A stretch of DNA of 39,799 bases. Source: an uncultured bacterium (GTDB lineage: Bacteria; Bacillota; Clostridia; Christensenellales; Borkfalkiaceae). The stretch spans positions 1-39,799 of the forward strand of contig CATKAP010000219.1 in the NCBI GenBank assembly GCA_949746255.1. The letters run 5' to 3'. The notes below the pieces were generated by a model. That model had not been told where the DNA came from, searched no databases, and saw nothing but the letters and a program-made list of their open reading frames with translations. Both the position numbers and the translations under genes were made by a program. Position 1 is the first letter of the stretch. The number at the start of each line of letters is the position of its first letter. Shown piece after piece: positions 1 through 34,784 of this stretch.

Positions 1-3000
1 ACTACGGAATCGGAGGAATTGTTTGAGTTTGATTCAAGCGCTCCTTCGGCCAGCGCGCTTACCGCGCTGTTGTCCGCGCTCAATGCGGACAACGATAATA
101 CTTATGCGGAGTTGAGAAAAGCCGTTAACGAAAACGGCGGATATCTTGACGCGGAACAAATACGCGCCAACAACGGCGGCAAAGATATCGTTGTATATCT
201 TCGCGGCAGACAGTGGTACGTGCCTTTCGTTTCAAAAGACAAGTCGGGCAATATAATAGCCACTCTTTGGCTTAAAGACGGCGGAATGGGAGATTTGGTT
301 CCTTACGCCGCGGGATGGTATTCCGACGACCATACTTTGAGTTATCCCGGACACATGTATTCTACAAGTTACGTGCGCTCCTATCTTAACGGCACGCCTT
401 TCGTTACTACGGAGGGCGCGGTAGCCGGAGAAACAAACATCAACGTTACTTCCAGCAGTAATCTTTATATTGACTATAACGGCGCGCAGTCAGAAATGTG
501 GAAGAACTTCCTTTCGGGCAGTATTACCGATTATTTGGTGCAACCTAAAAATATCGATTGGCAAAACGACGGTACAGTGGCGTTTGACGCTCTCGGCTGG
601 TCGAAAAGCCGTCAGTGCCCCAACAGCTTTGTAAATAACAATAAAATTCCGTTCGCGGGCAATCACAACTATACCGACAGGGGCGCGGGCGTTACGGCAT
701 ATTCTGCATGGGGCGACGACTTTTTGTACCTTCCTTCGTTTTATGAAGTAGGTTTGGTTACCGGCAGCGTTCCTTACAGCGGGCTTTGGAACGCACCGCT
801 TTCAATGAGAACAAACGATACCGGATCCTCCGCCAGCAAAGTCCACGGTGAACCGGCGGAGGGCGAAGTCAGCCCCGTTAGTGATATGAACAGTTATTGG
901 TCGTGTCTCGGCTCGTCCTGGGATACCGCCGGCGTAGGTTTTTCCTCGGCTGCGAGAGCGTATATGTGGGAAGCTTCCTCTTCGGGAATAGGCAATAATC
1001 TTCATGTATTTCATAATTTGTCTTTGCGTCCCGCAATCAATTTCAACATAACCAAAGCTGTAGGCGGCGAAGAATCGGAACTCGATTTGGCGCAATTATG
1101 GAACGAAGCCGTTCAGAAGAGCCTTGATACCGGTAAACAGGTTGAATTTATTCTACCTGAAAATTGGTATGCTCAGCATAGTAATACTATTAACGCCAAT
1201 TCGTTCGGAGAGGGCGTAGGCTTCGATACGGGCAGAATTTACGTCCCCGCCGGAGCGAATATAAAATTAAGATTAAACGGGCACAGTATTGACCGAAATT
1301 TAACTTCGTTCATCGATAAAGGCAACGTAATTTTTATCGACGGCGGCACGTTGGAAATAGTTGATCAAACCGTGTCGCACGGAGGAAAAATAACGGGCGG
1401 TTATACCAACGCGGGAATTGATGTGGACGGAAGCAGAGTCAATACGGGCGGAGGTATACTCGTTTTAAACGGCGGTAGGCTCGTTCTGTCGGGCGGTACC
1501 GTAACGGGCAATTATTCCAGAGAAACCGCGAAAGACGACGCGTCGGCAATGTTCGGCGGCGGAGGCGTAACCGTAGACGGCGAGGGCAGCACATTTATAA
1601 TGAACGGCGGCGAAATAAGCGGCAACGGCGGAATAATAGACGGCGGAAAATATTTAATGGGCGGCGGCGTGTATTTGACCCGCGGCGCGTCCTTTGTAAT
1701 GAACGGCGGCGACATAGTCCGCAACGAAGCTACGCTCGGCGGAGGCGTAGGCGCTATAGACCATGTCAAATTGGAAATAAACGGCGGAAACATATCGTAT
1801 AACGCTTCGAGCCAATTTGCCGGAGGCATTTATTTAAATTCCGAGTGCGAAGCCGTTATAAATAATGCGGTAATAAAAAACAATCAATCGTTAAACTACG
1901 GCGGCGGCATAATGGTAAACGGCGGTTCCGTCCTTGTAATCAACGGCGGTTCGGTTTCGTACAACACCACCCAAACCAACGGCGGCGGCATACATGTTTT
2001 CAACAGCTCTGCTTTGGAAATAAACGGCGGCGAAATTTCCGATAACTACGCCGAAGGCGACGGCGGCGGTGTAGCCTTAGAAGCCGTTCAAAAAGAAAGC
2101 GGCGGCTCCGCTTTAAAAATAAACGGCGGCAAAATATGCCGCAACAGCGGCGACAGGTGCGGCGGTTTATTTGTTTGGGGCGACGAAACAGGCAAAGACA
2201 TGTCTTTAGCTGTTATAGATTTGCTCGGCGGCGAAATATCGTACAATACCGCGAGAAATCCGTCCGGCTGGGGCGGCGGCGCGGGGCTTTTCGGTTACTG
2301 CACGATTAATTTGGACGGCTGTAACGTTATAAACAACTTAAGTAATTTTGCCGCAGGCGGTTTACATGTGGTTTACGACAGCGTGTTCAACATGTATTCC
2401 GGAAATATTTCCGGTAACGAAAGTCTGGCTTCTTCGGACTGGGGCGGCGGAGGTATACTCGTTTCGGGCAGTTCCGAAGCGTTTGAAAAAACCGTATTTA
2501 ATATGTACGGCGGTAAAATTTCCGGCAACAAAAGCAATTGTAGCGGCGGCGGCGCGTATTTCGGCGGTGCCACGGTTAATTTATACGGCGGCGAAATCAG
2601 CGGTAACACAGCGGAATATGCCGGCGGCGGAATTTATATAAGATACAGTGCAATGCATATCGCCAACGCAAAAATAAACGATAATAAGGCTTTGTCTATA
2701 GGCTCCGCGGGCGGCGGAATATATTCTCAGAGTACTAATATTATAATGGACGGCGGCGAAATAAACGGAAACCGTAATTACTCTACCGGAAGAAACGGCG
2801 GCGCGGGCATAATGTTCAACACAACGACCGGTAAGAGTAAAGTTACTTTTGTAATGAACGGCGGCGAAATTTGCTATAATGAAAGCACCTGGGCCGGCGG
2901 AGGAATATTTATAGGCTACAATTCCGAATTTATACTTAACGACGGACTTATGGCTTACAATAAAGACGGCGGCGGTTTTTACGGCGGCGGCGCGGTTTTT

Positions 3001-6000
3001 GCGCAGACCGAAAACGCGATGTTTACCATGAACGGCGGGCTTATTACCAAAAACGAGTCTTCCGGGCAAGGCGGCGGCGTTTATATTCAGGTTCAGGCTA
3101 TAATGAATATGAACGGCGGCAGAATTGTAGAGAACGTAGCTCCGCTTCACGGCGGCGGCATATCTGTAGCCAATGCGGCGGTTTTGCATCTTTCCGGCGG
3201 TATCGTCGCGCGCAACACAAAACCGAACGGTTCGGCGGATAACGTTTATCTGCAAACCATAGAGAACAGAATAGATATAACGGGAACGCTCCGCGGTGAC
3301 GGCGAAACGTCTTATATAGGGGTCAATCTCGGTTTCTCGGGTCAGTTTACAGTCAATTATAAAACGCATAACCCCGTTTACAGTCCTTTGACTTATTTCT
3401 TCTCGGACGACACAACATACGGAGTTATCTACGTCGGCAACGAAGCGCATTTAAGTTCTTCCGTTAACCGCGAAACTCTCTTATGGGAATATTCGTCCGA
3501 CGGCGGTTCTACGTGGAAAAAAATAGAAACCACTCAGATTACCGTTAATTATACCGGAAGCAATTATCGTGTGCGCGCTATGTATAACGGCTCGGTTATA
3601 ATCAGCAAGCCTACTTCTACAAGCATAGAGGGCGACGACGAAACAAATCTTCCCGAAGCGTTTTCGGCTGTGGGTTCTTATGCCTATACGCTTGCAAACG
3701 CAACGAGCGGCGGCGTTACTTTCGCAAATCCTACTCTTATATTCGAAATTGTTCGTTCGGAGTTGGTTTGGCAGTACAGAGTGCAAGGCGGGGAATGGCA
3801 GGATATTTCGAATAACGAGCTTATGTTTACGGGCAGCGTTTACGAAATACGTGCGTTAAACGGCGATACTCCCGTAGCGCTTGCGGACGATATAAAAATG
3901 CGTTCGGCGGGTTCTTACGAGTTCGAAGTTGCGGATAACGCTTCCGGCAATTATGAAAACGGAAGTTTAACCTTTACCATTATTTCGCGTACAATAACTT
4001 TTAATTGGAATTTCCCCGGCTGGAGCGGTGATTTATACAACGGCTTCAAGATTAAGTACGACGGTCTGGAACATTATCCGGTATTTACGGTTGACGGAAT
4101 CGACAATGAAATAATAGGTCAACTGAAAATAAGGGCGGACTATTTTTACAACGGTTCGCAAATTTACGTAAATCCTAAAAACGCGGGCGTTTACGACGCA
4201 AAAGTGGTGTTTGCAGACGACAGCAGTTTCAAAGACGACCTCGGCGTTAACATATTCTTCCTTAACCACAATATAAGGTTTAATATTACGCCCATAGAAT
4301 TGAGCGTGGCTTGGCGCAATGAAACGGATATGCCCATAGAGGAGGCGGAATACGTTTATAACGGCGAAGAGCGTTCGGTAGGCGTAAGATTACTCGGGCT
4401 GAGAGAAGGCGATAACGGCATAACGCCTGTTTTAAACTATTATCTCAACGGTTCGCCGATGGCTAACGCACCCGAAAACGTAGGTAAATATCTTGCCCGC
4501 GTAAGTCTGCCGGAGTCTTGCGTAAACTATATTTTGGACGATAACTACGCTTGTCAGATAAATATTTCCAAAATGGTAATTTCGCCGCAGTTTGCTGGCA
4601 ACGAAAACAACAGCGGACTTTTCGTGTGGACGTATAACGGCAAAGTTCAGGCGCCTTCGGTTACAATTCTGGGCGCGAAAGGCGAATTGCCCGCTTCGGA
4701 GTACACGGTAACGGGTAACGACAAAATCAACGCCGGCACTTATACCGTAAGCGTGGCGCTCGGCGCGGAAGCCGCTAAAAATTACGTGCTTGAAGCGTTT
4801 ACAAAGTCTTACACTATTGCCAAGGCGGGCGTGAACATAATTTGGAACGGAACCACAGACGGCTCGACCGACGCGGCGGATAATATATCAGACGGCGTAA
4901 TCGTTTGGACTTACGATAAACTTTTGCACTCGGTAACCGCGCAAGCCGTTCCCGAAAATACCGACCTTGCGCCTTTTGCTCTGAATCTTTCGGGAGTTGA
5001 CGGACTGACGGACGTAGGCGCAAAAACGGCTACCGCAACTTTAAATTTAACCGACGCGCAAAATTACGTGTTGCTCGCTTCTGCGCCCCTTTCGCAAAAG
5101 TACAGGGTAGACAAATTTATCATAACTTCCGTTACGTGGAAGAGAGGCGACGTGACAAATTCTTCTCACGACAGACCGCACTATTCGCACGGAACTATAA
5201 CGGGCGCGGGTCCCGCTTACGCGGTCAGCGCGCAGGGCGTCGATTCCGAAACGCTTTCGTTTAACGTAACTTATTCGTTTGCGGGTACGGCGGAAGGCGT
5301 TGCGTGGCCAGAAGACAACGTAAACGGTTACAAAGCGTTTGCGGCTTTGAGCGCGGATCAGTTCAAAAATTACGCGTTTGCGGAAAATATTTCTTCCGAC
5401 GGCGGAAAAACGGCGTTTATAGTCTTCTATATAGACCCTATATCGGGAGAAAAAACTTCCGTAACTCCCGTTTGGGTTATTTTCACCAAGGAATCCGTGG
5501 GTGTGGGTTCGGGTTCCGACTCCTATCAGACTCTCACGCAGTTTATACAGGCAAACGGCGGCGACAGATTTGTGTTCGAGTATTCGTTCGGCGTTAAACG
5601 CAATATATACGCAGTTTGGCTTAACGACGACGGCACGATAAAAGAAATTTTAAACACCGTTACAACCGGCGAGGGGACTAACGCGGGCGACTATGTTTCA
5701 AGGCTGCTTCCCTCCGTAGAGTACGATTACAGCGGTAAACTGGAGTGTTCTTTCAGAATAATTCCTAAAAAACTCACCGTACAGTGGACGGCGGGAGCGT
5801 TGACGTACGACGGCACGGAAAAAGTTCCCGAAAGTAAAGTTTATTATAACGGCGTTCTTTTAACGGCGGACGAACTTGCCGAAGCCGGTTTCTCGGCGCA
5901 TGGCGCATATAACGCGGGACCGCATATTGCTATAGCTTCGGTTAACGGCAATTACGAAATTACGGGCGGCGGAGACAGGTTTGAGTTTACTATTACGCCT

Positions 6001-9000
6001 AAGCCGTTCTCCGCGGCGGATATAGTTTGGGAAAACACCGTGCTTGCGGAAAACGGCAGCGAACAAGCGCCCACGGCGAAGTTTAAAATAAAAACCGATG
6101 CCCCCGACGAGCAGGCGGACGCGTGGATTACTCTTCGCGTTCTCGGCGCGGCGAAAGGCGCGGGCACTTATACGGCGTATGCGGTTTTGGACAGCACAAA
6201 TCTTACGCATTCGAATTATGTGATTTCCGACCCGGATAACGCAACCAAAGTTTTCAAAATAGTTCTCGTTCGAATCGACGTGAACAACGTTTATTGGAAA
6301 ATTACGGAAGGCGGCGCGACGGTTTCCCAATCTTCTCCCGCCGAGTACGTTTATACGATAGGCGCCGAGCAGGGACCCGTGGCTTATTATACGGATTCCG
6401 AAGGCAACGAAATAGCGCTTGCCGTTGTCGGTAAAATGACCGACGCCGGCAAATATGTGGCTTCGGTTGCGGCGGGATACGACTTTGTTGACGGTTCGGA
6501 TAGCGTTGCGGCTCCTACGTGCGCGTTTGAAATAAAAGCTAAACAAATTACCGTGCAATGGGACGCGGATTCGCTTAAAGTTACTTATAACGGCGCGGAA
6601 AGAAAACCCGTTTTCAGTTTCGGCGGAAATCTTACCGACGCGGATAGAAACGCTTTGAACGGATTGTATACTCTTACGGGATTTACAGACGCGGGCAAAT
6701 ATACCGCGCAGATAACGCTTGTTTCAAACAACGCGGGCAGTAACTATATATTCGAAACAAACGGCGTCGACGGTTCTACGATTTTAACCGATACTTTGGA
6801 AACCGCGTTTGAAATAGAAAAAATATCTCTTACCGAAAATGTAAACTTTACTTGGGATACCGTGGTTTCATGGGTATACGACGGCGTCGAACACGCGCCG
6901 GCGCTGAATCAACTTACGTTTAATCTCGGTTCTGGTACGGTTACTTTTAAGATTTCCTATACGGGTAAAACGGCTAACGCCGGAGTTCACTACGTTACCC
7001 CCGTTCTTGTTTCGGCTATTTGGGACGTGGACGGCGGACAGAAAAACATAACTTCCAACTTTGTGCTCAATATAGGCGCGAAAGAGTATACCATTACTGC
7101 CAAAACGGTTAACGTTGAGTGGGATTGGGACGGTTCCGTGCTGAACGGAACCATTCACGAATGGAAATACAACGGCACCGAGCGCGGTCCCGCGGCTTAT
7201 ATGACGGATAGCAACGGCGACCGTATTCAAAATGAAAACGGCGATTGGGCGCTTGACGTTTACGACAAGGGCGTTAACGTCGGCGAATATACCGCACGCG
7301 TTTTCGCACCCGACAATTACGTGTTTACGGGCGGAGTGTTCGCCGTAGAAACCGATTACAAAATAGCCAAAGCCGACGTTACTATAGAATGGGACGATAA
7401 CGGCGGTACGGATGAAAACGGCGTAACCGTTTGGATATACGACGGCGCCGAACATTTCCCCAAAGCGTATATAGTCGTAGACGGCGTGCGCGGAGGAGAA
7501 GTTAAAGTTACGGGTTCGGCAACCGACGCGGGCGAGTTTACGGCGCGCGCCGAAGAGGAAAGTTCCAACTATACCATAGTGGGCGGCAACGTTACCCGTA
7601 AATGTAAAATAAACGCCGCGGAAGTTTACCTTATTTGGCAGGGTTATAACAATACCCAATCCTTTGATTGGCAATATGCGGGAGGAAGCTATGTAGGGCC
7701 TACCGCAGTGCTTGCCACAAAAGATGCCGACGGTAATATTGTGGCAATAGTAAAAGACGGCGGATATATTTCCGTAACGGTAACCGGCGCAATGTCGCAG
7801 GTATGCGCCGACGGTGAAAATTACGTTGCAACCGCAGTTGATAATTTTGTAAATTATGACTTTGCGGCGGACGCCGAAATCACAAAAGAATTCAGAATAG
7901 TTCCCAAAGAACTTTCCGGTTCGGGATATCAGTTCAAGTGGAATTCCGGCTCGGTTATTCCCGTGCTCGGCGGCGAATTCCCCGTATATAACTACGTTTA
8001 TAACGGCGAAGCGCAGTCGCCTTCGCCTGAAACCGAGGAAGCGTTCGACAGAGTTTTCGTAACCATTTTCTACAAGGTGGAAAGCGACGGCACTCTTACG
8101 CTCGTCCCCGAAAACGCTGTGACGGACGCCGGTAAATATCGGCTTGTTACCGCTTCTGCGGACGGCAACTACGTTGTGCCCACGGGTATGGAAACTATCG
8201 AAGTGGTTATAGCCGCTATGGAAGTTGAAGTGGTTTGGAACGTAGACGGGCTTGTATATAAAGGAGCGAACGTAGAACAGGTTCCCGAAGCGCATTATCT
8301 TGACGTTAACGGAAACAAGGTTACTTTAAACGTATTGGTCAACGGCGCGCACGCAAACGCGGGTGAATACGAAGCTTCCGCAAGTTTCACGGCGCAGGTA
8401 ACTAATTATACGCTTAAAGCAAGCACGGTAAAACATAAATATAAGATTGCCGCGCGTGAAATTCCCGTAACGTGGGATTGGACGGGCTGGACGGCTAAGG
8501 GCGTAACATACGACGGAAAAGCTCATTTGCCCGTTGTGCTGCCCTATTTGGAATTTGCCGATTCCGACGACGTACAGAACGGCGGACTTACTGTCAACCG
8601 CACTCTTACGTTTAACGGAAACGCTGTGACGGAGGCGGTGAACGCAGGCGCTTATAAGCTTGCGATAACGCTTAGCGGAAGCGCGGCGGGCAACTATAAA
8701 CTTACCAATGCGGAGGACAGTTTCATCATAGCTAAACGTTCGCTTACCATAACGGCGGAAAGCGCTACGGTGGCTTACGGTTCGCCTGCTCCCGCATATT
8801 CGGCGGTATTCAGCGGATTTGCGGACGGAGAGGATGAAAATACTTTCAATCTTTTGGACGCTGCCGTTAAGAGCAATTGGCTAACTTGCAGCTATAACAA
8901 ACGTTCGCAGCCCGGTACTTATGCAATACGTTTAAACAAAATATGGCTTGAAAATACGCTTAAAAACTATCGCTTAACTCTCGGCGACGGAACTTTGACG

Positions 9001-10854
9001 GTAACGGCGGCGGAACGCATGGTTATATGGCGCGGAGAGCTTGAAGATTTGGGCGCGTATTACGACGGTTTGGAATACAAACCCACGGCGGTATATTACA
9101 AAAACGGAACAACGGGAACGCCCACTCAGCTTACCGTTGTGTACGCGACTTACGATTCGGCAACCGGCACGTATACGCCGCTTAACGATAACGATTTCAG
9201 AGCGATTGACGCCGGAACATATTATGTTATGGCTTTGGACGAAAGCGGAACGGCTACTTTGACAAATTCTTGTATCAGTTATGAAATATATAAGCGCGAA
9301 GTTGTCGTAAATATAAATTCTGTCAAGGGTCAAGTGTTCGGCGACGTGTTTAAAACCACGGGTGAAAACGGCGAAAACATTACGCATAAATTCCTTTCCT
9401 GGAGTTTCGGCGACGTTAAACCCGTACTCGGTCACGACCTTAAAATATCTCTTTCCGTGGAATTTGATTTCGATTCGCACGGATATGCGAACGCGGGCGA
9501 ATACAACATTACAGGCAGCTGGGACGAAGATAATTTCTCCGCTAATTATAAAGTAACGTTCTCCGGCGAAGCCGAGGATCAGGACGGCGCAAACACAATG
9601 GGCGTTTATGAAATTCAGCTTGCTAAGATAAGTATTCTTAAACGCGACGATATAATGTCGGAAGGCGATTTCCAATTCCACGTGGGTAACGTGGGCGGCG
9701 GAAAAGCCTGGTACATACGTCTTGGCGACTATTCGGAAGTGGACGGAGTCGAGCAGTACACCTTTATAGGCAGCAACGGTTACAGGGGCAGAGACGAAGT
9801 GCACGTATATTACAGTAGAGGCGCGTACGATTTGCTTGCGCCCGACGGAACGGTAAATATACCCGCTCCCGAGGACGAAACCGATTGGGTTACCGAAAGA
9901 GTAGGGCTTCGCGTAGTGGGCAAATATGCTATCAACTTTAAAATAGAAATAGCAAACCATGAAACGCTTTACGGTACTTGGCGCGTGATTATACTTCCAG
10001 AAAACCAGATTGTGCGCGTAATATTCACAAAGCCTTACGAAACAGAGTACGGTAAACCCGTTCCCGAAAACTTTGCGCAATATTTGTACAGAGAAGGATA
10101 TATAACGTTCGACAATATAGGAATAGACAGCTTTAACAGCCGCGTAACGGCTACCGTGGACGACGGATTCGGAGGAACGGTGGATTCCAAAACGGGCGTA
10201 GGCAAATATACCGTGAATTTTGCGATAGACAATACGGGTTCCGATATAGAGTATACAATCGTTTACAATACTTTGCAGTCGCTGGAAGAAACCAATGTCA
10301 ACGCCTATGTGATAAAGCCTAAACGTATATACGTCGAATGGGGAGAAAAGGAATACGAGTACAACGGGCAGTTGAACGCTCCGTCCGTAAATCTTTCGGG
10401 GTGGATTACCGCCAACGACCGTATTATTACCCCCGACCAGCTCAGATTTGTTTCGGAAGGCGACGGTTACGAATATGCGGCGTTCAAGGTGTTCGATAAC
10501 GGCGCGGATGTTTCCGTTGTTATCACCACCCGCGGAAACTTTACCGCGGTGGGCGGTCACATGATGCGCGTTACCGTGGAGGATAAAAACTATACCGTTA
10601 AAGCGGGAGAGGACGAAGCGGTTATTTCCATAGTCAACGGCTCTGATCCCGATCCCGTTATTACCGAAGGGCTTCCGCAGTGGCTTTTGTGGGCGCTTAT
10701 AGCGGCGGGCGCGTTGCTTTTGATTCTCTTAATAATAATTTTTGTACTTGCGTCAAAACGCAATAAAGCGGGGGTTACCGTTTTCGGCGGTTATGACGAG
10801 GGATTCGGCGACGATACGGAAGAGTATCCCGACGAATCGAATGACGAGGAATAA
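1..10854 (+). CDS. Giant surface protein: DUF6273-like domain, beta-helix, MBG/Ig-like repeats, C-terminal TM anchor (5' partial)
   Basis: Cell-surface protein, probably an adhesin or matrix protein; that role is inferred. The frame is open to base 1, so the track's TTG at 19 is not a credible start: GGAGG lies only 2 nt before it, and the downstream paralogue aligns with 50-60 more N-terminal residues, including a signal peptide. Using track numbering, residues about 58-345 resemble DUF6273 (STSYVRSYLNG, ending in LRPAINFN). A linker shared with the paralogue follows (FGEGVGFD, VPAGANIKL). Residues about 470-1070 are a right-handed beta-helix of NGG-x-I-x-x-N and GGG-I/V motifs. About 1155-3540 hold some twenty Ig-like repeats of the W..YDG..H.P.A..AG.Y.A..NY type, including one clear MBG module (YGSPAPAYSAVFSGF). 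A single TM segment at 3555-3577, a basic SKRNK stop-transfer and an acidic tail follow. No LPXTG or SLH motif is seen. The architecture is certain; the binding target is unknown. Confidence 0.85.
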   Translation, partial: TTESEELFEFDSSAPSASALTALLSALNADNDNTYAELRKAVNENGGYLDAEQIRANNGGKDIVVYLRGRQWYVPFVSKDKSGNIIATLWLKDGGMGDLVPYAAGWYSDDHTLSYPGHMYSTSYVRSYLNGTPFVTTEGAVAGETNINVTSSSNLYIDYNGAQSEMWKNFLSGSITDYLVQPKNIDWQNDGTVAFDALGWSKSRQCPNSFVNNNKIPFAGNHNYTDRGAGVTAYSAWGDDFLYLPSFYEVGLVTGSVPYSGLWNAPLSMRTNDTGSSASKVHGEPAEGEVSPVSDMNSYWSCLGSSWDTAGVGFSSAARAYMWEASSSGIGNNLHVFHNLSLRPAINFNITKAVGGEESELDLAQLWNEAVQKSLDTGKQVEFILPENWYAQHSNTINANSFGEGVGFDTGRIYVPAGANIKLRLNGHSIDRNLTSFIDKGNVIFIDGGTLEIVDQTVSHGGKITGGYTNAGIDVDGSRVNTGGGILVLNGGRLVLSGGTVTGNYSRETAKDDASAMFGGGGVTVDGEGSTFIMNGGEISGNGGIIDGGKYLMGGGVYLTRGASFVMNGGDIVRNEATLGGGVGAIDHVKLEINGGNISYNASSQFAGGIYLNSECEAVINNAVIKNNQSLNYGGGIMVNGGSVLVINGGSVSYNTTQTNGGGIHVFNSSALEINGGEISDNYAEGDGGGVALEAVQKESGGSALKINGGKICRNSGDRCGGLFVWGDETGKDMSLAVIDLLGGEISYNTARNPSGWGGGAGLFGYCTINLDGCNVINNLSNFAAGGLHVVYDSVFNMYSGNISGNESLASSDWGGGGILVSGSSEAFEKTVFNMYGGKISGNKSNCSGGGAYFGGATVNLYGGEISGNTAEYAGGGIYIRYSAMHIANAKINDNKALSIGSAGGGIYSQSTNIIMDGGEINGNRNYSTGRNGGAGIMFNTTTGKSKVTFVMNGGEICYNESTWAGGGIFIGYNSEFILNDGLMAYNKDGGGFYGGGAVFAQTENAMFTMNGGLITKNESSGQGGGVYIQVQAIMNMNGGRIVENVAPLHGGGISVANAAVLHLSGGIVARNTKPNGSADNVYLQTIENRIDITGTLRGDGETSYIGVNLGFSGQFTVNYKTHNPVYSPLTYFFSDDTTYGVIYVGNEAHLSSSVNRETLLWEYSSDGGSTWKKIETTQITVNYTGSNYRVRAMYNGSVIISKPTSTSIEGDDETNLPEAFSAVGSYAYTLANATSGGVTFANPTLIFEIVRSELVWQYRVQGGEWQDISNNELMFTGSVYEIRALNGDTPVALADDIKMRSAGSYEFEVADNASGNYENGSLTFTIISRTITFNWNFPGWSGDLYNGFKIKYDGLEHYPVFTVDGIDNEIIGQLKIRADYFYNGSQIYVNPKNAGVYDAKVVFADDSSFKDDLGVNIFFLNHNIRFNITPIELSVAWRNETDMPIEEAEYVYNGEERSVGVRLLGLREGDNGITPVLNYYLNGSPMANAPENVGKYLARVSLPESCVNYILDDNYACQINISKMVISPQFAGNENNSGLFVWTYNGKVQAPSVTILGAKGELPASEYTVTGNDKINAGTYTVSVALGAEAAKNYVLEAFTKSYTIAKAGVNIIWNGTTDGSTDAADNISDGVIVWTYDKLLHSVTAQAVPENTDLAPFALNLSGVDGLTDVGAKTATATLNLTDAQNYVLLASAPLSQKYRVDKFIITSVTWKRGDVTNSSHDRPHYSHGTITGAGPAYAVSAQGVDSETLSFNVTYSFAGTAEGVAWPEDNVNGYKAFAALSADQFKNYAFAENISSDGGKTAFIVFYIDPISGEKTSVTPVWVIFTKESVGVGSGSDSYQTLTQFIQANGGDRFVFEYSFGVKRNIYAVWLNDDGTIKEILNTVTTGEGTNAGDYVSRLLPSVEYDYSGKLECSFRIIPKKLTVQWTAGALTYDGTEKVPESKVYYNGVLLTADELAEAGFSAHGAYNAGPHIAIASVNGNYEITGGGDRFEFTITPKPFSAADIVWENTVLAENGSEQAPTAKFKIKTDAPDEQADAWITLRVLGAAKGAGTYTAYAVLDSTNLTHSNYVISDPDNATKVFKIVLVRIDVNNVYWKITEGGATVSQSSPAEYVYTIGAEQGPVAYYTDSEGNEIALAVVGKMTDAGKYVASVAAGYDFVDGSDSVAAPTCAFEIKAKQITVQWDADSLKVTYNGAERKPVFSFGGNLTDADRNALNGLYTLTGFTDAGKYTAQITLVSNNAGSNYIFETNGVDGSTILTDTLETAFEIEKISLTENVNFTWDTVVSWVYDGVEHAPALNQLTFNLGSGTVTFKISYTGKTANAGVHYVTPVLVSAIWDVDGGQKNITSNFVLNIGAKEYTITAKTVNVEWDWDGSVLNGTIHEWKYNGTERGPAAYMTDSNGDRIQNENGDWALDVYDKGVNVGEYTARVFAPDNYVFTGGVFAVETDYKIAKADVTIEWDDNGGTDENGVTVWIYDGAEHFPKAYIVVDGVRGGEVKVTGSATDAGEFTARAEEESSNYTIVGGNVTRKCKINAAEVYLIWQGYNNTQSFDWQYAGGSYVGPTAVLATKDADGNIVAIVKDGGYISVTVTGAMSQVCADGENYVATAVDNFVNYDFAADAEITKEFRIVPKELSGSGYQFKWNSGSVIPVLGGEFPVYNYVYNGEAQSPSPETEEAFDRVFVTIFYKVESDGTLTLVPENAVTDAGKYRLVTASADGNYVVPTGMETIEVVIAAMEVEVVWNVDGLVYKGANVEQVPEAHYLDVNGNKVTLNVLVNGAHANAGEYEASASFTAQVTNYTLKASTVKHKYKIAAREIPVTWDWTGWTAKGVTYDGKAHLPVVLPYLEFADSDDVQNGGLTVNRTLTFNGNAVTEAVNAGAYKLAITLSGSAAGNYKLTNAEDSFIIAKRSLTITAESATVAYGSPAPAYSAVFSGFADGEDENTFNLLDAAVKSNWLTCSYNKRSQPGTYAIRLNKIWLENTLKNYRLTLGDGTLTVTAAERMVIWRGELEDLGAYYDGLEYKPTAVYYKNGTTGTPTQLTVVYATYDSATGTYTPLNDNDFRAIDAGTYYVMALDESGTATLTNSCISYEIYKREVVVNINSVKGQVFGDVFKTTGENGENITHKFLSWSFGDVKPVLGHDLKISLSVEFDFDSHGYANAGEYNITGSWDEDNFSANYKVTFSGEAEDQDGANTMGVYEIQLAKISILKRDDIMSEGDFQFHVGNVGGGKAWYIRLGDYSEVDGVEQYTFIGSNGYRGRDEVHVYYSRGAYDLLAPDGTVNIPAPEDETDWVTERVGLRVVGKYAINFKIEIANHETLYGTWRVIILPENQIVRVIFTKPYETEYGKPVPENFAQYLYREGYITFDNIGIDSFNSRVTATVDDGFGGTVDSKTGVGKYTVNFAIDNTGSDIEYTIVYNTLQSLEETNVNAYVIKPKRIYVEWGEKEYEYNGQLNAPSVNLSGWITANDRIITPDQLRFVSEGDGYEYAAFKVFDNGADVSVVITTRGNFTAVGGHMMRVTVEDKNYTVKAGEDEAVISIVNGSDPDPVITEGLPQWLLWALIAAGALLLILLIIIFVLASKRNKAGVTVFGGYDEGFGDDTEEYPDESNDEE
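1440..3270 (+). repeat. Beta-helix coding repeats (NGG..IS.N..GGG-I)
   Basis: About twenty-five degenerate 20-30-residue rungs recur here, with MNGG or INGG followed by a short spacer, an Asn, and then GGG-I/V. At the DNA level AACGGCGG recurs many times. The pattern recalls the GGA-I/FxxN rungs of chlamydial Pmp proteins and other right-handed beta-helices. It is a protein-level repeat, not a CRISPR or satellite. Confidence 0.8.
3480..10630 (+). repeat. Tandem MBG/YDG-like Ig repeat array in the first giant protein
   Basis: About twenty modules of roughly 80-110 residues. Each opens with a Val/Ile-rich strand and Trp, then Y-D/N-G, a Pro, an AG-x-Y turn and an NY near the end, and is joined to the next by a K-containing linker. 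Modules are strongly diverged in sequence, so the array is old rather than freshly amplified. It probably forms a long stalk carrying the beta-helix away from the cell. Confidence 0.8.
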
Positions 10855-10874
10855 CGGAAAATTTTAGGCAAAGC

Positions 10875-10906
10875 CTCGGGCTGAAAGTTTTTCAATTCAG
10901 CCCGGG
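10875..10906 (+). terminator. Intergenic hairpin, possible weak or partial terminator
   Basis: CGGGCTGAA pairs with TTCAGCCCG across a 10-nt loop, and the stem extends by further pairs at its base. No U-tract follows (GCGCCAAAATT), so efficient intrinsic termination is doubtful. No convincing promoter lies between it and the next start. It may attenuate read-through into the second giant gene or mark an mRNA processing point. Confidence 0.45.
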
Positions 10907-10966
10907 CGCCAAAATTCCTTCAAACAAAAACTCAAATCACACTAAGTTTAATAGTGAGGAAAAACT

Positions 10967-13900
10967 ATGAAAAAAACAAATTCCAACGGCGTTACAGCCG
11001 CGGTAAAATTCAAAAAAATCAGAAGCGGCGCTTTGGGTACGCTTACTTTGAGCTTTTTATGTTGTCTTACGGCGGGGCTTGCGGGTATTTTCGGCGTTTC
11101 CGCGGCAGGTCTGCCGTTTGCACGCGCGGACGCTTCGGGCAACATAAACGTAGGCTCGCTTTTCAAAGGTAATAATCCGGACAGGGCGGTCTTGGAAAAG
11201 TTTTATAACGCGCTTTCCGAAGATAAGTCGGTAAGCAGTATAGCGGAAGTAGAACGTTCATTAACCAACAGCAAAGGCACGTTGGATTCCGAGGAGCTTC
11301 GCGCGTTAAACAATAATAACGATACTTTGGTCACTATGGGCGCGGATATGGAGTGGACGGTTACATACGTTTCCCACGACGCTAACGGCAATGTTATTGC
11401 CACATTGTGGTTAAACGACGGCGGACACACTTTTCTCAGCCCTTATTCCGGCGGTTATACCGGCGGAAGAAAGCTGCAGTATCCCGGGGATTTGTATTCT
11501 TCCAGTTATATTCGTTCTTTGTTAAACGGTACAACATACATAACGACAACAAGTACAAGTACAGTTCTTAATTCGGCGTATACGGTAACTTCCGCTTCGC
11601 AGTATTTTATAAATAGTACCGGTAAAGGGCAAAATGCGAAGTATAAAAGCTTTATAGAAAATTTCGGCGAGTATATGGTTACGCCGAAGGACGTAAGCTG
11701 GCAAATTAATCCCACTGAGGAATCGAACGAAAAGTGCGGCTGGCTGGGAGGTTCTGTTCCGTCTAACTCCTTGTTAAATTCAACTTTTGCAATATACGGT
11801 AACGCTACCAACGGAGACAAAACAAGCAACGATTACACCGCAAAGGGAAACGCGGCAAACGGCACGCAATACGACGCGTGGGGCAACGACTATTTTTGGC
11901 TTCCTTCACGCGGAGAAGTAGGACACGGCGAAGACGGTTCGCATTATATCGGTCTTTGGGCTACTTCGATAAATCAAAGAAAAAGCGATACGGGAGTTAA
12001 AAGCGGCAATTTAAATACAAGCACCGTAAACGGTTCTTATAATCATTATTGGCTCAGATCCGGAGCGGTTGCTACGGAAAATTACGTGCATTGGGTTCAA
12101 GCAAACGGTACGGTGGGCGCAAGCGGCGATCCCTACGTTTGCTGTGCGGTTCGTCCTGCGTTCCACCTCAATTTAACCGCGCTCGAAAACGCCACCAAAC
12201 AGGCGCAGGATAATAAAGATTTGGAAAACGCATGGAACAACGCCGTTAACGAAAGTCTTATAAGCGGCGGAAAGCAGGTTGCCTTCAACCTTACCCACGA
12301 TTGGATTGCAACCGAAAAGACCGACGGCGCGGAGGGAAGAACGTATTTCGGCGAGGGCGTAGGCTTTGACGAATTCGGCAGAATCTTTGTTCCCGCGGGC
12401 GCAAACGTAAAAATCAACTTAAACGGTTACACAATAGACAGAAATTTAATAAGCAAAGAAGCTCAGGCTAACGGCAATGTAATGTACATAAACGGCTCTC
12501 TGGAAATAGACGACTCTACGGGCAGAGGCAGAATTACCGGCGGCAATTCAAATATGGTTGATGTCGGTTCAGAGGGTTGGGGCGGATGTATTTGTGCGGA
12601 CGGAGGCACGCTTGTAATAACAAACGGAAATATAACCGGTAACTGGGGTAGATTCGGAGGTGGCATATTCGCCGCTAATAAAGCTAAAATTATAATTAAC
12701 GGCGGTACGGTTTCGTATAACAAATCGTTACAGCACGGCGGCGGGATTTATGTTTTTGCGGATTGTATTTTAGAGCTGAACGGCGGTACAATTTCAGGTA
12801 ATACGGCTTTGGGCGACGGTGGCGGGATTGCTTTTTCCGATGCATACGGCGTGATTAACGGCGGTACGTTACATGGTAACTCTGCGCGCGACGGCGGCGC
12901 TATGGACTTAGTGCGTACTACCTGCGTAATGAACGGCGGCGTAATAACGGACAACGTTGCGCGCGACGGCGGCATATACATACACATTAAAAATGAATTT
13001 ATATTAAACGGCGGTACAATCGGCAAAAATCGCGCGGTACAGGGCGGCGGAGTGTATGCCGATAAAGAAGGTAATTCTATTACCATAAACGGCGGTGAAA
13101 TCAGCCAAAACACTGTGCAAAAACGCGGCGGAGGCATTTATTCCGAAAGTCCTCTTACCATAAACGGCGGTAAAATAAGCGAAAACAATGCCATGATGTC
13201 CAACGAATTCCGTCCCGATTCCGAAAAAGTGTACGGCGGCGGAGGCGTTTTTATCGACGGCGCGCCAATGTTAATGTATAACGGCGAAGTTTCTGAAAAC
13301 AACGCGGACGCGGGCGGCGGTTTTTATCTGATGGGTGAAGACTGCAAATCGGTTATTTACGGCGGGAACATAACTTATAATTTTTCCACGCGTTCTCAGG
13401 GCGGAGGTATTTATACGATAGAAAGCGCGACGCTTACTGTTTGGGACGGCAATATATCTTATAATTACATTAAAAATGCCCAGGAAAATGTCGGCGGCGG
13501 CGCAATATATTTGACCGGTTCGTCTACGGTTACGGTAAACGGCGGTACTTTTACCGGAAATCATACCGATAATACCGGTTCCGCAATATGTATCAGTAAA
13601 GGCGCAAAGGCGCTTAATTTCAACGGCGGCATTGTTTCCGGAAATTATTCAACTAACAGCCCTACAAACACCGCCAGCGTAGCCGTTTATCATATGACGG
13701 GACCAACGTCTACAAGTCAGGTAAATATATCGGGCGGAGTTATCGCGGGTAACTATAATCAAAACAATAAAAACGCGGATTTTTTCCCCGGCGGAGCAAG
13801 AAATACGTTCAATGTGAGCGGCAAACTTGCAAGCGGTACGAAAATAGGTTTATATCCCAGCCTTTGGGGCGCGGCAATTTCAAGCGGTTATACTACCAAA

Positions 13901-16900
13901 GGCAACGCGGTTTCGGACGCTTCCAAATATTTCTTTGCGAACGTGGGTGTTCTTTCCAATGCCGGCGGGGAAGTGGTGCTTACTACCGGCGGAGATAATT
14001 CTTTCTCAAACGCTGTCTGGACTTATACCGACGGAACCGAAACGGTTACGGCAAACGGTAACTACGTTTCCGTTCCTTATCAGACGGGTAAAGTTTGGAC
14101 GGTGACAAGCACGGCCGCCATAACTTCGGTTAAAGACGCTGCGGGAAGACCCGTTTCCGTTTTAACCAACGTAGGCAAGTATACATTTATTACAAATACG
14201 AATATTTATTTCACTTTTGAGATTCTTCCCGAAGATATCAGCGGGGCCGAAGTAAACGTTGCAACGCTTGTTTATAACGGCGAAGCGCTTACGCCCAAAA
14301 CCACGGTAACGCTTAACGGAGTTACGCTTACAAAAGGAACCGATTACGCGCTTGAATATTCCAATAACGTAAACGCGGGCGATAATGCCGTGGTTACGGT
14401 AAGAGGCTTGGGAAATTATTCCGGCGTTATAAACAAAAAATTTACTATTGAACAGCGCAACCTGAATTTGCGTTGGGGCAATTTACAGGCGATGTTCGAC
14501 GGAACCGCGAAGTCTGCCACGGCGATAGTGGAAGGCGCGGTGCAGGGCGATCCGGTATCGGCGGTTCTTGCGTATACTACCGAAGAAGACGAGTACGTTT
14601 CTCCTGTAAACGCCGGTTTCTATTATGTATACGCAACTTTCAGCGCCGGCAAAAATTATAAGCTTGCCCAAAACGTTTCGTTCAGACAGTCGTTTGAAAT
14701 AAAACGCCGTCCCGTTGACGTTTATCTGGAATCCGATTCCGGAGTGTATACGGGAGAAAGTCAGGAAATCAACGCGTATTATACCGACGTAAAAGGCGAT
14801 AAACAGAATATAGGCTATACTTTGTCGGGAGATATCACGGGCGGTTTTGCCGTTAAACCGGGCGTTTACACCGTGAACGTTGCTGCGGTTTCGTCCGACG
14901 GCAATTATATAGTTTCCGGCGCTACGCAAAAAATTTCTTACGAGATAAAGCGCGCGCCTTTGACGGGAACATGGGGCGACGTTTCGTTTGTTTACGACGG
15001 TGAAATCAAAGAACCCGTTTTAACGCTTGACGGCGGCGACGGAACGGTTTCCTATCAGTATTATATCGGAATTGAGGATTCCAGATTTGACGTAAAAGAT
15101 TCCGTTTCGTACATAAAAGACGCGGGAACTTATACAGTACGAGCTTTTCTTTCAAGTTCCAATTACGTTTTGACCGACGACAAAGGCGAAGAAGTTGAAT
15201 TTTTACAGCAAATTATAACCGTTGAAAAAGGCACGCTTGCCCCCGACGTAGCAGCTTCGGCGGAATATAGCGGAAACGCTCTTTCTCCTTTTACTGAAAC
15301 GCTCGGTTCAGGGTTTATAGTAACTTTTGAAAAAGACGGCGCGGAAATAGAGGGGTTGCCGGTTGACGCGGGAGAATATTCTTATACCGTAACAGACGAA
15401 AAAGGCAATTATAACGACTATAACGGAACGTTTACCGTTACGCGGAAAACCATTGTCGTAGATTGGTCGCACGACGGTTTTGCAATGGAGCAGGACGGAA
15501 AGTTTACATGGCTTTACGACGGAAAATATCATTTGCCCAAGGCAACGATTACCGACGGTAACCGCGAAGTTCCGGGAATTAAGGTTGACGTTGAACAGAA
15601 GTCGGTAGGCGATTATACGGCTACGGCGACGTTGCCTGAAAACGGTAATTACGTTTTGCAAAACGCAACAAAGAGTTTCGGAATTATAAAAAGCCGCGTA
15701 ACGGCGTTACAGTGGCGGCAAAAAGACGGTTCGGCTATTGCCGATAGAGATAAACTCAGTTATCAATGGATAGCGGTGTACGGCGCGAACGGTCCGGGAC
15801 TTAAAGCGTTCGGTGTGCTTACGGCGGCAGGTTCCGGCGTTTCGTTCGTATCGGAAAAACAAGCCGTTATAGAGCTTGACGTAAAATATAACGAAAACGA
15901 CGGGTATAACCCCGGCGGATATTGGGTGACGGAAGAAACCGCCGACGCGGAAAAGCAGTACGTTGCGAAAGTTGCGCTTAAATCGGGAGATACGGCAGAT
16001 TGCAACATGACCAATCAGTTTATTGCCGACAATACCCGCGGGTTCAACGTGACCAAGCTTGTTATTTCGACGGATATAAAATACGCTACCGTTTACTGGA
16101 TTATCGAAAGCGTTGTCGGCGGGGTACCCAAACATACCGTGCTCGGAGAAATAGAGGAAACCGACAACGGCGACGGAACAAAGAGTTACAGTCTGAAAAT
16201 AAACGGAGAATGTAAATTCAAGTACAACGGTTCGGAACAGGCGCCGAAAGCGATAGTTGCGTTCGAGGGGTACGACCCCGAAGCTCCTTCGGCAGGTTCG
16301 TTCGCAGTGTTGGAAGTACACGGCGGGCAGACGGACGCGGGCGTATATCATGCGTTTATTTCTTCAGACGTTCAGTATAACGTCCGTCCCGAAATAATGA
16401 TGTTCGGGTTTGAAATAGAAAAACTTATTATAACTTCTATAGAGTGGAGCGGCAACGCGGATAACGGCGGTAAATTCGAATGGCAGTATGACGGACTTAT
16501 GCACGGACCTACGGCGCAGGGCAGAACGGACGACGGCGTGGCTTGCCCCGTAACGGTTACGGGCGCAATCAACGCGGGAGTGTACCGCGCAAGACTTACG
16601 GCGGGCCGTAACTATGAGTTTGCCGCGGAAGTGGAAGGCGGTTTGGAGCATGAATATACCGTAAATAAGTTTAATATCGATAAAACGCAGATAGTATGGG
16701 ATACTACGGGTGGAACGGCAAAAACGGACGAGAACGGAACGTATTACGAATATATTTACGACGGCGTTACATTGTTCGGACCTACCGCAAGTTTCACGGT
16801 CGAAATAAACGGCGCGAAGATAGGCGGAACGCTTACCGTAATCGGCAGAACCTCCGCGGAGGGCATGCATTATGTTTATGCGTTTATTCCCACAACGGCA

Positions 16901-19066
16901 AACCCGGTTTTTGCAAATCTTTCTCTTGAAATGAAAGACGCTACATGCCGCTTCAGCGTGCGCCGCGCATCGAAACACGAAGTACATTGGTCGTTAAGCG
17001 AGGGCGGCGCGGAAGAAACGGGCAACCTTTTCTTTACCTACGACGGAGTTACCGATTTCAAGCCTTACGCTTATTTTATAGATGACGAAGGAAATAAAGT
17101 CGGTTTAAACGTGCTCGGTTCGGGTATGCAGGCGGGTGTATATACGGCGGAAATTTTCGATAACGATTACCCGTTTGCAAACGGCGTGAAGAAAAATTTC
17201 ACCGTTTTGCGCGTGACGGTTAAAGTCAATCTTGTAAACGGCTCGTTCGTTTACGACGGCAAAGCGCATTCTCCGGAAATTACTTTGAGTATAGTAAACG
17301 GAGAACCTACGGCGGAACGCTTGGATTTACATTTTGAAATAACTTCGGCGATTGAAGCCGGCGCGCATACCGCGGTCGTTACTTTGCTTGACAGAAATTA
17401 CGTTTTGCAGAGCAATACCGTCGAGTTCAATATAGCCAAACAAAGTTTGCAAATAGTTTGGGATGAGAAGGTTACTTTCGAATATAAAGATACCGTGTAT
17501 AAGCCCGGAATTTCCGCAATTAATATGAACGGCGCGGCGGTTAATCTTCCCGACGCGACGGTTACGGTTACGGGCGCTGAAAAGAACGTGGGCGTTTATA
17601 CCGCGCATGCCGTTATCGATAATCCCAACTATGTCCTTAATAACGCCGACATAGAGTTTGAAATTACTCCGTTCGAAATTACTGTTGAATGGACGGGTAC
17701 GGGCGAAGACGGCGACGTTTTCGAGTGGCAATACGATTCCGAAAAAATAAATAAACCCACTGCTTCGTTCACCGACTGGAAGGGCGATAAAACAGACTTA
17801 ACGGTTGTCGGCGGAGGCATAGACGCAGGCGAATATACCGCGACGGCAATCGCTCCCGTAAATTGTAAGTTCAAATTTACTACGGGTGAAAACGCGTCGG
17901 AGCGCGCGTATAAGATTATTGCAGGTAAAATAACTTCTATTATCTGGGAAGCGGGCGCGGGATTGACAGACGACGGCGAAGGCGGATATTATTACGAATA
18001 CGACGGCAACACGCCTGTAATAGAGGCCTATGTGGACAACGGCGGCGTTAAGGGCGAGAAGCTTGTTATTACCGGCGTGGGTATCGACGCTAATACATAC
18101 ACGGCGACGGCGCTTCCCCGCAACGCGGCGAATATTGCTTTCGACGGCGTATCCAACACGTTAAAGATCACGGTTAACCCCAAAGAAGTTTCGGTTGAAT
18201 GGACTGCGAGCAAAGACGTAACCGTATCTGCTTCCGGCGAATATATCTGGGCTTACGACGGAGCCGTTCATACTCTTACCGCCTCGATAGAAGGCGTTAA
18301 CGGCAAAATACAGGTGCCTGTAAGCGGCGGCGAGGTTTCCGCAGTAGGAGAATATACCGCCACGGCAGTTGACGTATTGAACAATTATTCGTTTACCGAA
18401 GCCAGCGCGGAAAAGCAGATTATCGTTAAAGCCAAAACGGTAGAATTCGAATGGACCGCGCAGGACGGAACGTATAATGCGGACGACGATTCTTACGAGT
18501 TTGTTTACAACGGCAGGGCGCAGATTCCTACCGTTAACGTAACAACCGAAGGCGTTTCCGGATTGACGTTGGTTTACAGAATTTACGACGACGGTTTCAA
18601 TCCCGTAAAGGCGGCTATAAACGCGGGTACATACTACGTTTACGTAAGTGCGGCAATTCCCAGCAATTACGCTTTCGACGAAAATGATGCAGATGAAAAC
18701 GGCGATATTTCTGTAACTATTATCATTAAACGTAAAGAAGTAAGCGTAAAATGGGGAGCTTTGCGGCTCGTTTACAGCGGTTCGGCTCAAGCGCCGGAAG
18801 CCTGGTTTACCGACGTAAACAATCAATTGGTTAAACTTGCAGTAAGCGGCGCGCAGACGGAAGTTGGAACGGGTTACTCCGTAACGGCGGACTTTGTTAA
18901 CGCTTCGCTTGCGGAAAACTACTCGTTAACGGACGAACAGTCGACGTTTGCCATCGAAAAACAGTTTATGGATAAAGTTGAATGGGATTGGGAAAACGGC
19001 GAATGGAAAGACGCGCCGCAGAAAACTGACCCTGACGACGAAGAACAAACAACTTCCGGCAATTAA
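10967..19066 (+). CDS. Giant secreted surface protein: signal peptide, DUF6273-like domain, beta-helix, MBG/Ig-like repeats, no C-terminal anchor
   Basis: Paralogue of the preceding gene, 2699 aa. The ATG is set by GAGGA 6 nt upstream. A long signal peptide (basic start, hydrophobic residues about 21-47) leads to a probable cleavage near ARA-D at residue 54. Residues about 128-404 form a clear DUF6273-like domain (SSYIRSLLNG, HYWLRSG, VRPAFHLNL). The shared FGEGVGFDEFGR linker follows, then a shorter beta-helix at about 540-940 and about eighteen Ig-like repeats from about 1089. The protein stops just after a new repeat begins (MDKVEWDWENGEW) and ends in a polar acidic tail without TM, LPXTG or SLH. 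It may be released, or held by its anchored sister or by the wall. It shares order and linkers with the first protein but is diverged at DNA level, so the duplication is old. Function is unknown; adhesion is inferred. Confidence 0.88.
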   Translation: MKKTNSNGVTAAVKFKKIRSGALGTLTLSFLCCLTAGLAGIFGVSAAGLPFARADASGNINVGSLFKGNNPDRAVLEKFYNALSEDKSVSSIAEVERSLTNSKGTLDSEELRALNNNNDTLVTMGADMEWTVTYVSHDANGNVIATLWLNDGGHTFLSPYSGGYTGGRKLQYPGDLYSSSYIRSLLNGTTYITTTSTSTVLNSAYTVTSASQYFINSTGKGQNAKYKSFIENFGEYMVTPKDVSWQINPTEESNEKCGWLGGSVPSNSLLNSTFAIYGNATNGDKTSNDYTAKGNAANGTQYDAWGNDYFWLPSRGEVGHGEDGSHYIGLWATSINQRKSDTGVKSGNLNTSTVNGSYNHYWLRSGAVATENYVHWVQANGTVGASGDPYVCCAVRPAFHLNLTALENATKQAQDNKDLENAWNNAVNESLISGGKQVAFNLTHDWIATEKTDGAEGRTYFGEGVGFDEFGRIFVPAGANVKINLNGYTIDRNLISKEAQANGNVMYINGSLEIDDSTGRGRITGGNSNMVDVGSEGWGGCICADGGTLVITNGNITGNWGRFGGGIFAANKAKIIINGGTVSYNKSLQHGGGIYVFADCILELNGGTISGNTALGDGGGIAFSDAYGVINGGTLHGNSARDGGAMDLVRTTCVMNGGVITDNVARDGGIYIHIKNEFILNGGTIGKNRAVQGGGVYADKEGNSITINGGEISQNTVQKRGGGIYSESPLTINGGKISENNAMMSNEFRPDSEKVYGGGGVFIDGAPMLMYNGEVSENNADAGGGFYLMGEDCKSVIYGGNITYNFSTRSQGGGIYTIESATLTVWDGNISYNYIKNAQENVGGGAIYLTGSSTVTVNGGTFTGNHTDNTGSAICISKGAKALNFNGGIVSGNYSTNSPTNTASVAVYHMTGPTSTSQVNISGGVIAGNYNQNNKNADFFPGGARNTFNVSGKLASGTKIGLYPSLWGAAISSGYTTKGNAVSDASKYFFANVGVLSNAGGEVVLTTGGDNSFSNAVWTYTDGTETVTANGNYVSVPYQTGKVWTVTSTAAITSVKDAAGRPVSVLTNVGKYTFITNTNIYFTFEILPEDISGAEVNVATLVYNGEALTPKTTVTLNGVTLTKGTDYALEYSNNVNAGDNAVVTVRGLGNYSGVINKKFTIEQRNLNLRWGNLQAMFDGTAKSATAIVEGAVQGDPVSAVLAYTTEEDEYVSPVNAGFYYVYATFSAGKNYKLAQNVSFRQSFEIKRRPVDVYLESDSGVYTGESQEINAYYTDVKGDKQNIGYTLSGDITGGFAVKPGVYTVNVAAVSSDGNYIVSGATQKISYEIKRAPLTGTWGDVSFVYDGEIKEPVLTLDGGDGTVSYQYYIGIEDSRFDVKDSVSYIKDAGTYTVRAFLSSSNYVLTDDKGEEVEFLQQIITVEKGTLAPDVAASAEYSGNALSPFTETLGSGFIVTFEKDGAEIEGLPVDAGEYSYTVTDEKGNYNDYNGTFTVTRKTIVVDWSHDGFAMEQDGKFTWLYDGKYHLPKATITDGNREVPGIKVDVEQKSVGDYTATATLPENGNYVLQNATKSFGIIKSRVTALQWRQKDGSAIADRDKLSYQWIAVYGANGPGLKAFGVLTAAGSGVSFVSEKQAVIELDVKYNENDGYNPGGYWVTEETADAEKQYVAKVALKSGDTADCNMTNQFIADNTRGFNVTKLVISTDIKYATVYWIIESVVGGVPKHTVLGEIEETDNGDGTKSYSLKINGECKFKYNGSEQAPKAIVAFEGYDPEAPSAGSFAVLEVHGGQTDAGVYHAFISSDVQYNVRPEIMMFGFEIEKLIITSIEWSGNADNGGKFEWQYDGLMHGPTAQGRTDDGVACPVTVTGAINAGVYRARLTAGRNYEFAAEVEGGLEHEYTVNKFNIDKTQIVWDTTGGTAKTDENGTYYEYIYDGVTLFGPTASFTVEINGAKIGGTLTVIGRTSAEGMHYVYAFIPTTANPVFANLSLEMKDATCRFSVRRASKHEVHWSLSEGGAEETGNLFFTYDGVTDFKPYAYFIDDEGNKVGLNVLGSGMQAGVYTAEIFDNDYPFANGVKKNFTVLRVTVKVNLVNGSFVYDGKAHSPEITLSIVNGEPTAERLDLHFEITSAIEAGAHTAVVTLLDRNYVLQSNTVEFNIAKQSLQIVWDEKVTFEYKDTVYKPGISAINMNGAAVNLPDATVTVTGAEKNVGVYTAHAVIDNPNYVLNNADIEFEITPFEITVEWTGTGEDGDVFEWQYDSEKINKPTASFTDWKGDKTDLTVVGGGIDAGEYTATAIAPVNCKFKFTTGENASERAYKIIAGKITSIIWEAGAGLTDDGEGGYYYEYDGNTPVIEAYVDNGGVKGEKLVITGVGIDANTYTATALPRNAANIAFDGVSNTLKITVNPKEVSVEWTASKDVTVSASGEYIWAYDGAVHTLTASIEGVNGKIQVPVSGGEVSAVGEYTATAVDVLNNYSFTEASAEKQIIVKAKTVEFEWTAQDGTYNADDDSYEFVYNGRAQIPTVNVTTEGVSGLTLVYRIYDDGFNPVKAAINAGTYYVYVSAAIPSNYAFDENDADENGDISVTIIIKRKEVSVKWGALRLVYSGSAQAPEAWFTDVNNQLVKLAVSGAQTEVGTGYSVTADFVNASLAENYSLTDEQSTFAIEKQFMDKVEWDWENGEWKDAPQKTDPDDEEQTTSGN
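12590..13790 (+). repeat. Beta-helix coding repeats in the second giant protein
   Basis: Roughly fifteen rungs of the same INGG..IS.N..GGGIY type as in the first paralogue, about two thirds as long. Rung number therefore differs between the paralogues while the flanking linkers are kept, which fits gain or loss of rungs by slippage or recombination. Confidence 0.78.
14230..19000 (+). repeat. Tandem Ig-like repeat array in the second giant protein
   Basis: About eighteen modules. The first is of a different sub-type (LVYNGEALTPK, NAGDNAVVTVRG, GNYSG) that is common in clostridial surface proteins. The rest follow the W..YDG..P.A..AG.Y.A scheme of the first paralogue. The last module is cut short after its opening strand. 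Confidence 0.78.
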
Positions 19067-34783: not shown

Positions 34784-34784
34784 T

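Follow-up and report, generated by a model that had tools for sequence, protein, structure and literature searches.

Two adjacent giant genes of an uncultured Borkfalkiaceae bacterium as candidate partners of one stalked surface adhesin

The window, a 39,799-nucleotide stretch of DNA from an uncultured bacterium of the Borkfalkiaceae, contains two adjacent giant genes, A and B, whose products are probably the two partners of a single giant surface adhesin, a fixed-tip cousin of a family hypermutated in related species. In the proposed mechanism the C-type-lectin-like heads at the tip would bind ligand at the face preceding an RPA motif, and a rigid beta-helix neck together with about 16-18 Ig-like modules in fixed order would hold this tip tens of nanometres out. 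A would be held at the cell by its C-terminal transmembrane helix, and the unanchored B would probably be retained at the surface with A, perhaps via a C-terminal strand stub. In sister-species relatives with the same head type, chromosomal diversity-generating retroelements (DGRs) would hypermutate the ligand-binding part of the head, and the window pair would represent the fixed-tip version. We infer ligand binding, stalk length and the physical pairing of A with B, whereas sequence comparison supports the domain order, the presence of an anchor in one partner and its absence in the other, the conserved pairing and the module-for-module orthology.

Organisation and predicted folds of the two proteins

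Both genes are located on the forward strand, 112 bp apart. Because the window opens at a contig edge, gene A (window positions 1..10854) is without its start; its 5'-truncated product of 3617 aa comprises a head, a linker, a beta-helix, 17 modules, a transmembrane helix and an acidic tail. The head is C-type-lectin-like, of the DUF6273 type (37..1029, aa 13-343; homology and profile), and the linker with the pattern FGEGVGFD..G.I.VPAGAN (1084..1377, aa 362-459) was recognised by profile and homology, its fold being assigned by analogy with the model of B. A right-handed beta-helix with 34 rung motifs (1447..3258, aa 483-1086) was delineated by a profile built in the analysis, and is followed by a stalk of 17 detected MBG/Ig-like modules (3967..10626, aa 1323-3542), found by profiles, in part by Pfam, and by module comparison. 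Hydropathy and sequence indicate a C-terminal transmembrane helix (10672..10764, aa 3558-3588) and, after it, an acidic tail of cytoplasmic type. Contig C212 of the same genome ends with a 285-aa fragment that corresponds to residues 1-272 of the sister protein N1; the match of A to N1 begins at residue 344. Since the fragment and A match successive parts of N1, the missing piece of A would be another head; this alignment suggests that A probably has a second head and that C212 and the window probably adjoin in the genome.

Gene B (10967..19066) is complete and encodes 2699 aa. An N-terminal hydrophobic segment of signal type (11042..11098, aa 26-44) precedes a C-type-lectin-like DUF6273 head (11174..12154, aa 70-396; Pfam, model and Foldseek), a linker (12218..12523, aa 418-519; homology, profile and model), a right-handed beta-helix with 20 rung motifs (12602..13795, aa 546-943; profile and model) and a stalk of 16 detected modules (14210..18973, aa 1082-2669; profile and module comparison). 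Unlike A, B has no C-terminal transmembrane helix according to hydropathy. A promoter scan of the gap between the genes found neither a sigma-70-like site nor a terminator, which is compatible with co-transcription but does not prove it. A GC-rich inverted repeat (GGGCTGAA...TTCAGCCC) without a T tract is present between the genes, at 10860-10920.

In the Pfam search DUF6273 was recognised in B (2e-5, 25 bits against a curated cut-off of 23.5), while the head of A alone remains under the cut-off, yet aligns with that of B over its full length. MBG_2 (MBG YGX type, PF18676) matches two stretches of A with 44 bits and none of B, the remaining modules of both proteins being detectable only by the profile made within the analysis, and the beta-helix has no Pfam match. 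Because curated libraries detect so little, the anatomy given here was established largely by homology of the copies with one another and from the structure model. The HMM check proposed in the sequence-only reading, run here with Pfam, thus confirmed DUF6273 in B and MBG_2 in A and detected little else; the order of head, linker, beta-helix and MBG/Ig modules which that reading gave for both genes was borne out by profiles, alignment and model.

An AlphaFold2 model of B residues 58-700, based on 40 aligned sequences, has a mean pLDDT of 84.5 and a pTM of 0.80. In the model the head is an alpha/beta domain, the last strands of which immediately precede the RPA motif and coincide with it. The best PDB match of the model, by Foldseek, is 9qa6, the IgA protease of Thomasclavelia ramosa (prob 0.98, with a modest E-value of 0.009), and phage DUF6273 models are among the best viral matches of the head (prob up to 0.99, likewise at modest E-values). 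The N-terminal domain of 9qa6 was described as C-type lectin-like, its authors suggesting a function different from that of canonical C-type lectins (PMC12237041), and in the tentaclins of phages the C-lec domain corresponds to DUF6273 (PMC10743442). The head of B is accordingly modelled with a C-lec core fold. The ‘linker’ consists in the model of an alpha-helix of 30 residues and, after it, the cap at the N-terminal end of the right-handed beta-helix, the stacked rungs of which occupy model residues of about 420-640 (about 477-700 of B) with regular short strands and pLDDT mostly >90. Pectate-lyase-like structures were matched by Foldseek at weak E-values only, and the alignment profile of head, linker and helix gave no usable match among PDB sequences; the folds of head and helix are those supported by the model.

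The stalk was modelled poorly (pLDDT 56), with a strand-rich part at about residues 200-400 that came out best, and since only part of the model is usable its Foldseek matches are read as ‘Ig-like chain’ only. Fragments of GhpA are among them, and giant stalks with beta-sandwich chains would also suit a contact-dependent attack or capture device that holds other bacteria, like the grappling hooks of Aureispira. However, the GhpA match is generic for Ig-like chains, and no toxin domain, export machine or GhpA-type sequence was seen at the window pair, so that we consider such a device quite improbable.

Conservation and history of the anchored/unanchored pair

The genome containing the window encodes a second pair on contig C212: the anchored C, with 3927 aa and two heads, comes first, and the unanchored D, with 3209 aa and three heads, second. 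It also encodes E, an anchored protein of 6373 aa with one head, and the headless F of 826 aa. The pair of the sister species G184 consists of proteins of 3941 and 3187 aa with two and three heads, and that of G272 of a 3926-aa protein and a second gene interrupted by a contig break, with two heads and one. Further pairs, headless or helix-less, occur in G159, G317, G194 and G308, again with the anchored gene first and the unanchored one second. In all eight loci with visible upstream DNA, from seven genomes, the anchored gene precedes the unanchored one on the same strand at a distance of 74-417 bp; in three of these (G272, G194 and G308) the contig ends within the second gene, whose unanchored state is deduced from relatives or from another contig. 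The named relatives are Clostridia MAGs, the closest of which are labelled uncultured Christensenella.

The sequence-only reading had proposed a long stalked surface device and named many two-gene loci in related genomes as support for it, and both agree with the results; the head-linker-helix-stalk order is kept in the second pair and in sister species. The conserved domain order that it asked to test for is seen in the pair lineage (C212, G184 and G272), where the full order is stable. Elsewhere the domains are recombined, with heads on MBG stalks without a helix, or linker and helix in up to 12 repeats without a head, so that the contrary evidence named by that reading, a random combination of the domains, is in part borne out.

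Other genes recur near the giant pairs. Enzymes with two GH3 domains in swapped order were found in three loci (window 36636-39746; L022:9709-13041 and 15290-18373; L099:13535-16885), the window copy having hydrophobic segments at both ends. A LytTR response regulator and a GHKL sensor kinase are encoded 15 kb after B (window 34076-36116) and directly after D (C212:38503-40547), and it is possible that this system regulates the giant pairs.

The order of the stalk modules reveals the age of the pair. Comparison of A with C gives 16 rising steps of 16, B with D 15 of 15, C with M1 17 of 17 and D with M2 16 of 16, while A and B are not collinear (9/16) and their stalks are about 31% identical. 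Since A and B are not collinear with each other but each is collinear with its counterpart in the second pair and in sister species, the pair is old and was duplicated as a pair. The earlier proposal of a tandemly duplicated and diversified device is therefore wrong in its timing, and a recent tandem duplication is rejected on the basis of the module order. That A and B are recent duplicates serving as a recombination reservoir for antigenic variation might be suggested by the same domain order occurring side by side and by the variable numbers of rungs and repeats among other family members. This is highly improbable, given not only the missing collinearity and low stalk identity but also the one-to-one module orthologues of A and of B in other species; stalk length and module order, as compared at the sequence level, are held constant within each lineage.

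Along the protein, conservation between orthologues is highest in the linker, intermediate in the stalk and lower in most heads. Between the LPS motif and RPA, conservation falls below that of the head scaffold in six of seven orthologous head comparisons, the exception without a faster tip being that of the B and N2 heads. This fast-varying stretch before RPA is the same one that is mutated by DGRs in relatives. A mainly structural role, in which the proteins form an S-layer-like array or sheath and the heads are fold-stabilising caps rather than ligand binders, would be in line with the resemblance of the stalk model to the Ig-like chain of the Bacillus Sap S-layer, and with the IgA protease studies, which saw no part for the N-terminal domain in IgA cleavage (PMC12237041). 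It is nevertheless unlikely, since heads are present in one, two or three copies per protein, most of them evolve faster than the stalk with the tip fastest, a mutagenic retroelement acts on exactly that tip in relatives, and the distribution is patchy, B-type stalks occurring in only 10 of the 93 genomes of the genus.

The two-partner adhesin reading leaves B to be retained without an anchor of its own. B ends in a stub (18974..19063) that looks as if the first strand of one more module were present and the rest missing (DKVEWDWENGEW...). This resemblance emerged from visual comparison with the module consensus; no module start was recognised in the stub by a position-weight scan. All ten unanchored proteins whose end is visible terminate in a VEW-type stub or a variant of it. 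The likeness of the stub to a first strand suggests strand exchange of B with A. Docking of B on A, for which the evidence consists of co-location, the missing anchor of B and the stub, is proposed tentatively, and B could instead be secreted or wall-bound.

Diversity-generating retroelements acting on giant heads

A chromosomal DGR lineage (RT 64-72% identical), distinct from the phage DGR of the window's genome, was found in 14 of the 93 genomes. In nine of them, which have an RT and a bAvd-type accessory gene, template and variable region could be paired, the template matching the head of members of the giant-stalk family, and 138 of 146 mismatches fall at template adenines. Template and variable region share a contig in G194 (L129:6382-14131), G312 (L183), G128 (L117), G326 (L186), G306 (L187) and G104 (L203), and are located on separate contigs in G184 (L130 and L114), G291 (L190 and L194) and G214 (L197 and L200). 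No convincing variable region was detected in the stretches examined from the other five genomes with an RT of this type (G311, G234, G285, G316 and G229). The accessory protein bAvd (PF22296) and RVT_1 were confirmed in G194. Reverse transcriptase, bAvd, template and variable region, together with the adenine-specific differences, indicate that giants of sister species are targets of DGRs.

In most targets the variable stretch has the form WLRSG-(NNNNANNA...)-AVRPAL. The five complete targets are chromosomal and encode proteins of 1673, 2439, 2718, 3267 and 3517 aa with an N-terminal hydrophobic segment, a head, MBG-type modules and a C-terminal transmembrane helix; the remaining ones are cut by contig ends. 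In one G291 copy (L194, G291:C94) the variable region is interrupted by an in-frame stop codon, an outcome to be expected if adenines are mutagenised at random. The genes seen around the DGR loci are of bacterial type; at the G194 locus, for instance, they include dnaK- and grpE-type genes. In four loci a tyrosine integrase adjoins the RT, which makes a mobile origin of the cassette possible. A tyrosine integrase of the same kind is encoded on C212 (26473-27408; L022:6473-7408), 439 bp upstream of E, with no RT or template nearby, and may be a relic of a DGR element.

On contig C237 (L028:6438-9662) the window's genome carries a phage DGR, with a template at 8180-8311, a variable region at 7182-7313 and an RT at 8535-9662. 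Its variable region lies in a tail-type phage protein with Mtd_N and DUF6273 domains, with 22 of 23 mismatches falling on adenines of the template. A second phage-type DUF6273 gene, on contig C115 (L029:4309-5478), is 89% identical over 37 bases at its end to the C237 template and is possibly a second target of this DGR.

For the window pair itself to be a DGR target is exceedingly improbable. The head of B does keep the WLRSG...AVRPA frame, with the same 27-residue spacing as the template of G128, and its stretch equivalent to the variable region of relatives, WLRSG...AVRPAF, is located at 12050..12160 (aa 362-398). However, the codons of this stretch lack the DGR signature: the share of pyrimidine-ending codons in the tip-equivalent stretch is 0.48-0.67 in heads of the window's genome, compared with 0.74-0.85 in real DGR targets, and most of these heads carry tip residues that AAY codons cannot yield. 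Moreover, none of the templates from the genus fits the window heads, and the only RT found in the genome, which is 86.5% complete, is the phage one. On the codon signature and the template scan the window heads were thus rejected as DGR targets. A wider repertoire of the genus may be envisaged with some hesitation, in which DGR-hypermutated tips, diversified in cis or in trans, would give adhesins varying from cell to cell, alongside fixed-tip pairs docked by the strand stub.

Relation to known systems and biological meaning

C-lec heads, Ig stalks, beta-helices and cellular DGRs are each already known. Tentaclins resemble the giants in having an N-terminal DUF6273/C-type-lectin head followed by Ig-like domains, and a hypermutable beta-hairpin near the end of the head is a further likeness (PMC10743442). 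However, tentaclins are phage proteins with 1-4 Ig-like domains (PMC10743442), whereas the giants are cellular, about 2,700 aa or more in length, membrane-anchored (A) or paired (B), with a neck formed by a beta-helix, and the copies in the window show no hypermutation. Searches of PHROGs and phage records gave no match to the giant heads, that of B included. Identification of the window pair as a tentaclin was rejected in view of this result, the bacterial neighbours, the 16-17 modules and the absence of a variable-region signature.

Cellular DGR targets such as the variable proteins of Legionella and Treponema display a C-lec domain at the surface, like the sister giants, and RT, bAvd, template and variable region are all present in the sister genomes, as in the cellular systems surveyed (PMC8144416). 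The variable region of such targets is typically C-terminal (PMC8144416), but the sister DGR giants have theirs close to the N-terminus (aa 300-480 in proteins of up to 3,517 aa), opposite the end that bears the anchor, and the window pair has none. The IgA protease of T. ramosa (PDB 9qa6) is likewise a multi-domain surface protein of a gut Firmicute with an N-terminal DUF6273 domain and a C-type-lectin-like core; there the domain precedes a protease, whereas in the giants it tips a beta-helix and Ig stalk, and no enzyme domain was seen. SiiE, adhesins of the MpAFP/LapA type and PfbA present a binding tip on a chain of Ig-like modules or use a beta-helix as adhesive or neck element, as the giants would, but with different modules and anchors. 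To our knowledge, no large stalked adhesin has a two-gene anchored/unanchored arrangement of the A/B kind. In open-licence papers we found no description of this domain combination in Christensenellales, of a conserved pair of anchored and unanchored giants, or of hypermutation at the N-terminal tip of chromosomal giants of such size.

A bacterial DUF6273 family thereby gains a likely function as a binding tip. The pair defines a conserved two-gene architecture of giant adhesins among uncultured gut Clostridia and connects it with the hypermutation, driven by retroelements, of giant surface proteins encoded on the chromosome. This raises the question of whether gut commensals may possess variable tips that are comparable to antibodies and directed at mucus, particles of the diet, phages or neighbours.
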